Shown in pieces: positions 5,291 to 23,112 of a stretch of 64,000 nt of DNA. The DNA comes from Gammaproteobacteria bacterium (GTDB lineage Bacteria > Pseudomonadota > Gammaproteobacteria > Steroidobacterales > Woeseiaceae). The notes under the pieces are model-generated. The model did not search any database. It was given only the letters and a program-made list of their open reading frames with translations, and was not told the DNA's origin. The position numbers and the translations under genes are program-made. The stretch spans positions 1-64,000 of the forward strand of contig QOPG01000006.1 in assembly GCA_003331585.1 (NCBI GenBank), read 5' to 3'. Every line of letters begins with the position of its first letter. Within the stretch, counting starts at the first letter, position 1.

Positions 5291-6481
5291 ATGGCTAAAG
5301 AAAAATTTGAACGTAATAAACCGCATGTAAACGTAGGGACAATTGGTCATGTTGACCATGGGAAAACTACTTTAACAGCGGCACTAACAAAATGCATGGC
5401 AGAACGTCATGGAGGTGAAGTGCGTGACTATTCTCAAATTGATAACGCACCTGAAGAAAGGGAGCGAGGCATTACAATTGCTACAGCGCATGTCGAATAT
5501 GAAAGTGATAATCGACACTATGCCCATGTTGATTGCCCAGGCCACGCTGATTATGTAAAAAACATGATTACTGGAGCTGCTCAAATGGATGGTGCTATAT
5601 TGGTTTGTAGTGCTGCCGACGGTCCTATGCCACAAACACGTGAGCACATTCTTTTGGCTCGACAAGTCGGTGTTCCATATATTGTTGTTTACTTAAACAA
5701 GGCAGATCAGGTAGATGATGATGAATTGCTTGAATTAGTTGAAATGGAAGTACGTGAATTATTATCAAGCTATGAATTTCCTGGAGATGATACGCCAATT
5801 GTTACAGGTTCAGCATTAAAAGCTTTTGAGGGTGATACATCAGATATTGGGGTCCCATCAATCGAAAAGCTTGTTGAAGAAATGGATAGTTACATTCCAG
5901 AACCAGAACGAGCCATTGATGGTGATTTCCTAATGCCAGTAGAAGATGTATTTTCAATATCTGGCCGTGGAACGGTTGTAACAGGAAGAATTGAAAGAGG
6001 AATTGTCAATGTCAATGATGAAATAGAAATCGTTGGTATCAAGGATTCTGAAAAAACAACATGTACTGGTGTGGAAATGTTCCGTAAGCTTCTTGATCAA
6101 GGTCAAGCTGGTGATAATGTTGGTGTCCTCTTGAGAGGAACAAAACGTGAAGAGGTAGAAAGAGGTCAGGTTTTATGTAAGCCAGGCTCAATAAAACCTC
6201 ATACTGATTTTGAAGCTGAAATATATATCCTCAGTAAAGAAGAAGGCGGAAGACATACTCCATTCTTTAAAGGTTATCGACCACAGTTTTATTTCAGAAC
6301 AACTGATGTAACAGGTGCTTGTGAATTACCAGATGGTACAGAAATGGTAATGCCTGGTGACAATATTAAAATGTCGGTTGAGCTTATATCTCCAATTGCA
6401 ATGGAAGAAGGGCTCCGTTTTGCAATTCGTGAGGGCGGCAAAACAGTTGGTGCTGGAGTAGTTGCAAAAATCATTAAATAA
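5291..6481 (+). CDS. tuf: Elongation factor Tu
   Basis: A 396-residue GTPase that delivers aminoacyl-tRNA to the ribosome. The G domain shows GHVDHGKT (19-26), RGITI (59-63), DCPGH (81-85) and NKAD. Domains 2 and 3 follow, ending in the conserved GVVAKIIK. Context (tRNA-Tyr/Gly/Thr before, tRNA-Trp, secE and nusG after) identifies it as the tufB-type copy. No tufA follows fusA in this window, so this may be the only tuf gene unless another lies elsewhere. Co-transcription with the upstream tRNAs is likely. Confidence 0.99.
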
Positions 6482-19502: not shown

Positions 19503-21596
19503 GTGTCAAGAATAACACCGATAGATCATTACCGAAATATAGGTATCATGGCTCATATTGATGCCGGTAAAACAACCACTACAGAGCGAATTCTTTTTTA
19601 TACGGGCGTTTCTCATAAAATTGGGGAAGTTCATGATGGCGCAGCTATCATGGATTGGATGGAGCAAGAACAAGAGAGAGGTATAACAATTACCTCAGCT
19701 GCAACCACTTGTTTTTGGATGGGAATGAATCAACAATATGATCAGCATCGAGTCAATATAATTGATACACCTGGACACGTAGATTTCACAATTGAAGTCG
19801 AGAGAAGTCTTCGTGTTCTTGATGGAGCTGTAACAGTTTTATGTGCAGTAGGTGGTGTTGAACCTCAAACGGAAACGGTTTGGCGGCAGGGTAATAAATA
19901 CCATGTCCCAAGGATGATCTTTATTAATAAAATGGATAGGCCTGGTGCTGATTATTTTAGAGTTATAAAGCAAATAAAAGAAAGGCTTGGTGCGAATCCA
20001 ATTCCAGTTCAAATCCCTATAATGAAAGATGATGATTTTTTAGGTGTAATTGATCTAATCAAAATGAAATCTATCTTCTGGGATGAAGGTGGAAAAGGTT
20101 CAATTTATAGATATGAATCTATTCCAGATGAATTTAAAGAACTGGCTAATTACTGGAGAGAAATTCTAATAGAAACCGCAGCAGAATCTGATGAAGAGTT
20201 ATTGGAAAATTATCTCGAAGAAGGGTCATTAAGTGAAGAAAATATAATTTCTGGATTGAGAGCACTTTCAATAAGTAATGAGATTGTGGTTACGATGTGC
20301 GGATCAGCGTTCAAAAATAAAGGTGTACAAGCATTATTAGATGGAATTATTGATTTTATGCCTTCACCAGTGGATGTGCCTCCGATATCGGGGGTTTTAG
20401 AAAATGGTGAAAATGATATTCGAAATCCCTCAGATGAGGAGTCATTCTCTGCTCTTGCTTTTAAAGTAGCCACAGACCCATTTGTTGGAAATCTTACATT
20501 CTTTCGAGTTTATTCAGGAATAATCAGATCTGGAGATACTATCTTCAACCCTATCAAAGGAAAGCGCGAGAGAATAGGGAGATTATTGCAGATGCATTCA
20601 AATGACCGAAAAGAAATACAAGAAGTACTCGCAGGTGATATTGCTGCAGCGGTTGGACTGAAGGATGTAACCACTGGAGATTCACTTTGTGATCAAAAAA
20701 ATGCTATTACTTTAGAGAGAATGGAATTTCCTGAGCCAGTTATATCAGTTGCAATTGAGCCAAAAACAAAGCCAGATCAAGAAAAAATGGGTATAGCACT
20801 TCAGAAACTTGCTAAAGAAGATCCTTCTTTTAAAGTACATACTGATTTTGAGTCAGGCCAAACAATAATCTCTGGGATGGGAGAGCTACATCTGGATATA
20901 ATTGTAGACAGAATGTTCCGTGAATTTAGCGTAGATGCTAATGTTGGAAAGCCGCAAGTGGCATATAGAGAAACAATTACCAGAAAAGTCGAACAAGAGG
21001 GAAAATTTGTAAGGCAATCTGGTGGAAAAGGTCAATATGGGCACGTTTATTTAAATATAGAGCCAAGAGATTCAGGAGCAGGATATGAATTTGTTGATGC
21101 AATTGTTGGCGGAGCTGTTCCAAAGGAATATATCTCTTCGGTTGATAAAGGTATTCAAGAGCAACTTCAAAATGGGGTTGTTGCTGGTTTTCCGGTTGTG
21201 GATGTTAAGGTAACATTATTCGATGGCTCCTATCATGATGTCGATTCTAGTGAGATGGCATTTAAAATTGCCGCTTCCATCGCATTTAGAGATGGGACTC
21301 AAAAAGCTAATCCTATATTATTAGAACCTATAATGAGTGTAGAGGTTGTCACTCCAGAAGATTATATGGGCGATGTGATGGGTGACATTAATAGGAGAAG
21401 AGGTTTACCGCAAGGGATGGAGGAGTCTCCTGCAGGAAAAATAATCAAAGCTCATGTGCCTCTAGCAGAAATGTTCGGTTACGCAACTGATTTAAGATCA
21501 ATGACACAAGGAAGAGCTATATATTCTATGGAATTTTTCAAATATAATAGCGTCCCTAAAAATGTATTGGATGTTATAACCAACAAGATGATGTGA
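19503..21596 (+). CDS. fusA: Elongation factor G
   Basis: A 697-residue translocase GTPase (E. coli 704). AHIDAGKT (17-24) is the P-loop, then [12 protein letters not shown] and [21 protein letters not shown]. Domain IV contains [11 protein letters not shown], and the C-terminal domain V ends with [15 protein letters not shown]. Translation starts at GTG (19503), giving [15 protein letters not shown], in register with the family. It is the last canonical str gene. Where tufA usually follows, rpsJ begins after only 41 bases. Confidence 0.99.
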
Positions 21597-21637
21597 TAAA
21601 ATAATTTTAGATTGAAATTTAATAAAGGAAGAATAAA

Positions 21638-21952
21638 GTGAGTACAAATCAGAATATCCGTATCAGGCTAAAAGCTTTCGATCACAGGCTTATAGATTCA
21701 TCAGCTCGTGAAATAGTAGATACAGCAAAAAGAACAGGTGCAAATGTAAAAGGGCCTATACCATTACCCATGAAAATGGAGAGATTTACAGTATTAATTT
21801 CTCCTCATGTTAACAAAGATGCCCGAGATCAGTATGAGATTAGAACTCACAAACGTCTTATGGATATAGTAGATCCGACTGACAAGACTGTTGATGCACT
21901 GATGAAACTGGAGCTTCCAGCGGGTGTGGATGTCCAAATTAAGCTAAATTAA
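21638..21952 (+). CDS. rpsJ: 30S ribosomal protein S10 (NusE)
   Basis: A 104-residue S10 (usual 103). The sequence [21 protein letters not shown] and the C-terminal [16 protein letters not shown] are characteristic. It assembles into the 30S head and, as NusE, joins NusB in antitermination and NusG in coupling. Start is GTG (21638) behind AAAGGAAG (21625-21632). It is separated from rplC by 350 bases holding a promoter, whereas its distance to fusA is 41 bases, so it appears to belong to the str transcription unit. Confidence 0.98.
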
Positions 21953-22013
21953 TCAAATTCTAGGTTAAATTAAAGAAAATCATAAATAATTAAGTAAAAA
22001 GACCATTAATTAC

Positions 22014-22041
22014 TTGATAGAAACCAATCTAACGTTATAAT
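22014..22041 (+). promoter_or_regulatory. Sigma-70 promoter for the S10-spc operon, downstream of rpsJ
   Basis: TTGATA (22014-22019), a 16-base spacer and a perfect TATAAT (22036-22041). Transcription would begin near 22048, leaving a leader of about 255 bases before the rplC start. The unusual point is its place between rpsJ and rplC. Confidence 0.75.
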
Positions 22042-22047
22042 GGTCGG

Positions 22048-22302
22048 CTAATTTTAGCCGTTCCAAGAGTCGGCTAAATATTGGAAGTTGCTAGAATCTT
22101 TCTGGTAAAAAAGTTTGTTCACTTAATGAGAATTAATTAAGTGTGCTCGGCAAATCTTGGGCCTGGATTAATCCAGACGGGGTCAGTTCAAATACATAGA
22201 TGAATTATGGGGGACTGGCCCTTTATTGTGCTCAGATGAAATACATAAGTTTATTAATTGAAAACAAATTTTTCTAAGAAATAAACGATAAGAGGAACGA
22301 AT
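22048..22302 (+). promoter_or_regulatory. Structured leader RNA upstream of rplC (probable L4-responsive S10 leader)
   Basis: No ORF of note is present in this 255-base stretch. Hairpins in order: CGGCTA/TAGCCG (22045-22060), competing with TAGCCG/CGGCTA (22055-22076); TTCCAA/TTGGAA (22061-22086) extended by TAGC/GCTA; CACTTAAT/ATTAAGTG (22120-22143); CTGGA/TCCAG (22163-22176); and the 10-bp hairpin at 22180-22221 followed by TTTATT. In gammaproteobacteria, L4 controls the S10 operon by attenuation in a leader of this size. The same role is inferred here; no conserved sequence was checked. Confidence 0.55.
22180..22227 (+). terminator. Attenuator-like hairpin in the rplC leader
   Basis: GGGTCAGTTC (22180-22189) pairs with GGACTGGCCC (22212-22221): ten pairs, two of them G-T, around a 22-base loop. 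TTTATT (22222-22227) follows directly. This is the strongest terminator-like element in the leader and the natural place for regulated premature termination. Confidence 0.55.
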
Positions 22303-23112
22303 GTGTCAATAGGTTTAATTGGAAAAAAATGCGGTATGACAAGAATCTTTACTGAAGAAGGATCATCAGTTCCTGTCACTGTCATTGAGGCATTACCAAA
22401 TCGTATTTCTCAGCTGAAAGAAAAAACAAACGATGGGTATAATGCCGTTCAGTTATCATCTGGAAATGTAAAAAAATCTAGAATGTCCAAAGCAATCGCA
22501 GGGCATTTTGCATCCACAAAGACAAAACCAGGAAAAAATATCAATGAATTCCGAATCCTTGAAAATGATCAGAATGATTACAAATTAGGTATGGAATTAA
22601 CAGTAAACATTTTTGAAAAAGGGCAAAAGGTAGATGTAACTGGCAAAACAATAGGTAAAGGTTTTGCTGGTACAGTAAAAAGACATAATTTTAGTATGCA
22701 AGATGCTACTCATGGTAACTCTTTATCTCATAGGGCTCCTGGTTCGATTGGTCAAAACCAAACACCTGGTAGAGTCTTTAAAGGGAAGAAAATGGCAGGT
22801 CATATGGGTAATGTTCAACGTACAGTTCAAAATCTTGAAATCATCGATATTGATATAGAAAGGAACTTATTGATGATAAAAGGTGCTATTCCAGGTCATC
22901 CTGGTTCAGATGTGATAATAAAATTAGCTGTAAAACGCAACGATCAAGTTATCACGATAAATCGTCGAACAGATTCAAGCCCAGCAGAAGAAACATCCAA
23001 AGACACATCAGCAGATTCAAGCCCAGCAGAAGAAACATCCAAAGACACATCAGCAGATTCAAGCCCAGCAGAAGAAGCGGCTGATAAAAAAGTTGAATCA
23101 GAAGAGAATTAA
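22303..23112 (+). CDS. rplC: 50S ribosomal protein L3 with repeat-built acidic tail
   Basis: A 269-residue protein. L3 proteins are usually about 205-215 residues; the conserved domain here ends near residue 221. Family motifs are [13 protein letters not shown] (4-16), [13 protein letters not shown] (118-130) and [23 protein letters not shown], which includes the PrmB-methylated glutamine. Residues 223-258 are 2.5 copies of a 14-residue acidic, serine-rich unit ([14 protein letters not shown]), then a charged end. The start is GTG at 22303 with AGAGGA at 22291-22296. An out-of-frame ATG at 22301 overlaps it. L3 nucleates 50S assembly and lines the peptidyl transferase centre. Confidence 0.97.
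22970..23076 (+). repeat. 42-bp in-frame tandem repeat in the 3' end of rplC
   Basis: The unit starts CAGATTCAAGCCCAGCAG at 22970, 23012 and 23054. Period is exactly 42 bp; copies 1 and 2 appear identical, and copy 3 diverges after about 23 bases. Each full copy encodes 14 residues, so copy-number change would keep the frame. Identity at the DNA level points to recent duplication. Confidence 0.93.

Follow-up and report, generated by a model that had tools for sequence, protein, structure and literature searches.

Feedback by ribosomal protein L4 on the S10 operon is a textbook case of ribosomal protein autoregulation, usually thought to be narrow in its range, and the leaders of E. coli were reportedly found by Fu et al. 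in 2013 to have a narrow distribution. Attenuation at the S10 leader requires a factor, and S10 is itself the transcription factor NusE. In E. coli, L4 acts on the S10 leader located before rpsJ, for which both stem D and the attenuator stem E are needed (PMC10578931). Candidate leaders of ribosomal protein operons were described by Eckert and co-workers in 2020, including an L4 candidate positioned upstream of rplC in Archaeoglobi (PMC7247131). Comparison of 31 enteric-type leaders established that HD (CC-GAU-NN-GG) is their most conserved part, and a descriptor specifying an apical CC-(G/A)AU-NN-GG recovered 23 of the 31. HE of E. coli and of two near families carries the apex AU-CAAUCG(U/A)A-AU, while most other enteric-type leaders, the Pasteurella-like ones included, possess different HE loops.

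The window analysed here, a stretch of 64,000 nucleotides, derives from a 1.3-Mb draft genome of the Woeseiaceae, a marine bacterial family, and according to its open reading frames carries the genes in the order rpsL-rpsG-fusA-rpsJ-[350 nt]-rplC-rplD and on (Table 1). The rpsJ gene, 94-98% identical to that of its genus relatives, follows fusA after 41 nt, as the initial annotation had stated. The interval between rpsJ and rplC was long in all 67 Woeseiaceae gaps (318-779 nt), as it was in most of the remaining families within the order (about 160-500 nt), and within the gap of the window plus-strand upstream open reading frames reach 20-25 amino acids at most. In most relatives tuf is located shortly upstream of rpsJ, a linkage that is found order-wide; the window genus displays fusA-tuf-rpsJ in one genome (L038/L210), tuf-rpsJ in another (L007) and fusA-rpsJ in four. 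In the window genome and in three sister species tufA is absent from the fusA-rpsJ interval (21597-21637 in the window), the remaining tuf of the window, at 5291-6481, being the other copy. Judged by these gene orders, the loss of tufA is a recent event within the window genus. It had been proposed that rpsJ was captured by the str unit; as the promoter and structured leader sit after rpsJ, this gene precedes the leader and is probably a member of that unit, but a capture event at this locus is not borne out, since long rpsJ-rplC and short tuf-rpsJ gaps span the order and only the tufA loss is recent. Unlike that of E. coli, which is upstream of rpsJ, the leader is situated between rpsJ and rplC in the window and throughout the Woeseiaceae, and on the evidence of sequence the large ribosomal protein operon of this family would start after the S10 gene, not before it. 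In a Granulosicoccus draft (L106) rpsJ and rplC are approximately 2.35 kb apart, which may mean that the two units are physically separate in that genome. Separately, the 3' end of the window rplC contains a 42-bp repeat in 2.5 perfect copies (22970-23076) encoding an acidic, serine-rich C-terminal tail; the L3 protein of the window is 269 amino acids long, the aligned core in relatives being about 215.

Table 1. Coordinates of the genes, promoter and predicted RNA structures around the rpsJ-rplC gap of the window
Feature	Position	Strand	Evidence
fusA (EF-G)	19503-21596	+	ORF list; final str-operon gene ahead of rpsJ, no tufA between
rpsJ (S10)	21638-21952	+	ORF list; upstream of promoter and leader
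Promoter TTGATA-16-TATAAT of the rplC-led unit	22014-22041	+	Consensus match at 11 of 12 bases; conservation in relatives
Element B (model R1), a structured RNA leader conserved in Woeseiaceae	22048-22236	+	Alignment, covariation, R1 match
Hairpin P1	22053-22078 (22053-22060 with 22071-22078)	+	95% of cells paired; double changes at 4 pairs
Pseudoknot, P1 loop CCAAGA (22063-22068) with UCUUGG (22155-22160)	22063-22160	+	100% of cells paired
Hairpin P3	22120-22143 (22120-22127 with 22136-22143)	+	Alignment, covariation, sequence
Hairpin P4 (CUGGA/UCCAG)	22163-22176	+	Folding and alignment
Hairpin P5 with UUUAUU tail, attenuator-like	22180-22227 (22180-22189 with 22212-22221)	+	Helix 100% paired; weak U tract
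rplC (L3)	22303-23112	+	ORF list and relatives; first gene past the leader

The promoter and hairpin-rich leader that the initial annotation had placed between rpsJ and rplC are both present and both conserved in the Woeseiaceae. By single-sequence statistics the window promoter lies within chance expectation (3 promoter-like sites per 1 kb as against 5.0 expected), and it was accepted as real because it is conserved across the family and not because of this score. Among 58 alignable Woeseiaceae sequences, anchored on P1, a -10 box was present in all 58 (exactly TATAAT in 52), as was a -35 box starting with TTG at a spacing of 16 or 17 nt, and a promoter score of at least 9 out of 12 was attained by 53 of them as compared to 4% of shuffled sequences. 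The distance between promoter and RNA is nearly fixed in this alignment, and the transcript would start only a few bases away from the 5' end of element B. A terminator scan of the window found none in the stretch from rpsJ to the promoter; read-through from rpsJ is therefore possible, and such transcripts would carry the leader too.

The minimum free energy of the leader is -70.4 kcal/mol as compared to -51.4 +/- 4.5 kcal/mol for shuffled sequences (z = -4.28, with 0 of 200 shuffles as good). Its conserved portion, element B, is 164-232 nt long and comprises a covarying pseudoknot and four hairpins. Absence of conserved pairing among relatives had been named beforehand as a possible refutation, but the pairing proved to be both kept and covarying: over 43 pairs the covariation was 0.201 as against 0.125 for shuffled alignments (0 of 500), all five covariation measures exceeded their shuffles (0-3 of 500), and shifting the partner by one column lowered pairing from 90% to about 50%. 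The pseudoknot strands read CCGGGA/UCCCGG in most relatives, CCAAGA/UCUUGG in the window genus and CCGAGA/UCUCGG in a further relative (L013), with double changes at two pairs. A competing local hairpin, CGG(CAAAUC)CCG/UUG, varies only to G-U, whereas the pseudoknot changes on both sides; a switch between the two is possible. Immediately 3' of P3 an invariant CGGCAAAU occupies positions 22148-22155, P4 is variable among relatives, and P5 (GGGUCAGYY...RRCUGGCCC) is nearly invariant. The 10-bp hairpin followed by TTTATT reported in the initial annotation is thus present as P5, albeit not as a strong intrinsic terminator, of which the scan found none; its tail is UUUAUUGU in the window and UUUCGCGU in most relatives, a poor U tract. 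An attenuator of the E. coli type, consisting of HE and a U run, is absent from the window and its genus, the U tract of P5 being weak.

Of the 67 Woeseiaceae gaps, 66 contain element B, which was recognised in 63 from its core sequence and in three more with the model, and the window itself has an R1 match, the pseudoknot and the conserved promoter directly upstream. The R1 score on its own genome corresponds to E=1.4e-24, the window sequence forming part of the R1 training set. The only gap of the family devoid of element B (L030, genome G014) keeps two copies of hairpin C, described below, before rplC. Searches with R1 of 369 class genomes and 196 order genomes returned only marginal matches outside the Woeseiaceae: the solid matches in the class set were two Woeseiaceae only, and the strong matches in the order set were all from this family and all in the rpsJ-rplC gap. 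A weak match (10.9 bits) was obtained in another family of the order, where the rpsJ-rplC gap (L188:1245-1339) contains a GGGUCAGC...GGCUGACCCUU hairpin that may be a distant relative of P5. Comparison with Rfam 15 gave nothing at the gathering score for the window gap, only chance-level hits at E>1, and no match at E<=0.5 for 20 relatives; this silence is no proof of novelty, as the E. coli S10 leader, employed as a control, is itself missing from Rfam. Our literature search found no account of a gammaproteobacterial rplC leader or of element B, while a prior description of hairpin C is possible. Element B is on these grounds a new RNA, previously unlisted, of a kind, the ribosomal protein operon leader, that is already known.

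Outside the window genus, a second structure, hairpin C, with an 8-bp stem and the loop CAAUCG(A/U)A, is located 27-45 nt upstream of rplC. It is present in 58 of 61 Woeseiaceae loci of other genera, usually in two copies, and in 0 of 7 within the window genus, and its covariation is 0.87 as compared to 0.33 for shuffled alignments. R2, a hairpin C model built from the order only, detected it in many further gammaproteobacterial families, mostly as GGU-CAAUCG(A/U/C)A-AUC; all 23 R2 matches at E <= 5.4e-4 fall between rpsJ and rplC, and the best class matches lie in this gap mostly 34-45 nt upstream of rplC. R3, a class-wide model constructed without Enterobacterales-type S10 leaders, extended the families concerned, with matches outside its training set in G196, G334, G438, G199, G234, G236 and G357, bringing the gammaproteobacterial families in which hairpin C is conserved to at least 18. 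In many gaps of other families of the class (L303-L325) hairpin C comes last in a series, following a TATAAT-like box and a GC-rich hairpin that carries a U run, an arrangement that looks like a widespread attenuator. The window scored at best 3.5 bits with R2 and R3, a chance-level value, with no hairpin C near rplC, and by comparison with its relatives the genus has lost hairpin C and kept element B. When R3 was applied to 93 kb, the three HE hairpins were its three best matches (E 0.0017-0.016, that of E. coli having E=0.0017), and in whole-genome scans HE ranked second in both enterics where it was found. The resemblance first seemed a coincidence, since most other enteric-type leaders have other HE loops, and was reinstated as suggestive because the class-wide hairpin C carries the same apex. 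That hairpin C is the counterpart of HE, hinting at L4, is suggested by this likeness, not proven by it.

We consider it probable that element B acts in cis as the leader of an S10 operon headed by rplC, with a dedicated promoter, and that it senses a protein of this operon, the ligand being a candidate only; cis control of the rplC-led operon is likely. This reading is supported by the promoter, the covarying pseudoknotted fold, the fact that nearly all Woeseiaceae have the element, and its unchanging position before rplC. The S10 operon would then start at rplC, from its own promoter and element B, and one of the operon's ribosomal proteins, in its free form, would, through element B, set mRNA output from rplC onward, presumably by attenuation near P5, by blockage of the rplC start, or by both. 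Attenuation at P5 would need a factor because its U tract is poor, and translational blocking is equally possible, as in genera other than that of the window hairpin C lies directly next to the ribosome-binding site of rplC. L4 would be the first candidate for the ligand, and the likeliest one, since many relatives have a hairpin bearing the HE apex ahead of rplC; the window genus, having lost the HE-like hairpin, would depend on element B alone. Lying outside the unit, rpsJ would escape the feedback; the 'uncoupling' of S10 from L4 that the initial annotation had put forward is nevertheless not established by this, read-through from rpsJ being possible.

Among other readings, the one that fares best is a leader that does not respond to a ribosomal protein, serving instead in mRNA stabilisation, in RNase processing of a fusA-rpsJ-rplC transcript, in sensing a metabolite signal or in growth-rate control at the promoter. 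It is consistent with the rRNA comparison, where neither element B nor hairpin C gave anything beyond shuffled queries against E. coli 16S and 23S rRNA (the draft genome of the window has no assembled 23S), and pseudoknots also occur in metabolite riboswitches. In addition, most relatives have a GC-rich stretch past the -10 box, as stringently controlled promoters do. The element nevertheless heads a ribosomal protein operon and is adjoined in relatives by the HE-like hairpin, and we regard this reading as rather unlikely. Less probable again is the view of the initial annotation, a classical L4 leader of the E. coli type that came to stand ahead of rplC either by moving or through rpsJ bypassing it. 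The same operon, its own promoter, an attenuator-like hairpin near the coding start and the HE-like hairpins before rplC in relatives agree with it, and the part of the claim that stands is that a hairpin with the HE loop precedes rplC in many Gammaproteobacteria, but not in the window genus. Against it, the HD hairpin was found in 0 of 6 members of the window genus and, in about 105 gaps of the order, as a single marginal match, which falls among the 61 other Woeseiaceae, and element B is a different, pseudoknotted RNA that is without counterpart in enteric leaders. The missing HD, the missing hairpin C of the window genus, the poor U tract of P5, the lack of significant rRNA mimicry and the second rank of HE in two enterics also speak against the preferred reading of element B as a protein-sensing leader. 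We give least credence to an independent trans-acting small RNA extending from promoter to P5 and only incidentally placed before rplC, for despite the promoter, the high sequence conservation and the terminal hairpin with UUUAUU in the window genus, there is approximately one copy per genome, strong matches are confined to the rpsJ-rplC gap, and the tail of most relatives makes a poor terminator, with no conserved terminator at the end.

Returning to element B as a cis-acting leader, it would add a large pseudoknotted RNA, with a ligand candidate among the operon's ribosomal proteins, to the known leaders. If hairpin C is a widespread L4 counterpart, many Gammaproteobacteria differ from the E. 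coli model in the set of genes that feedback controls, S10/NusE being among them or not. A bolder and doubtful, though conceivable, extension is that element B represents a new class of ribosomal protein-sensing RNA and hairpin C a widespread gammaproteobacterial L4 operator, in which case the control before rpsJ in E. coli would be derived and L4 feedback would commonly leave out S10/NusE.

The candidate of Eckert and co-workers resembles the present locus in being a structured RNA directly upstream of a ribosomal protein operon that begins with rplC, and differs in being archaeal, the entries of their Table 1 considered here including no gammaproteobacterial rplC leader (PMC7247131). Hairpin C of other Gammaproteobacteria occupies the same gap, often with a promoter-like box and a hairpin upstream, but is a short, simple and widespread hairpin that is absent from the window genus, which has element B only. 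As compared to the E. coli S10 leader, that of the window lies after rpsJ, is without HD and without the HE-like hairpin, and adopts the pseudoknotted fold of element B; the two are nonetheless alike in that the S10 operon has its own promoter and is preceded by a leader that is long and structured, and in a hairpin near the start codon, the one before rplC in relatives bearing the HE apex UCAAUCG(U/A)AA.
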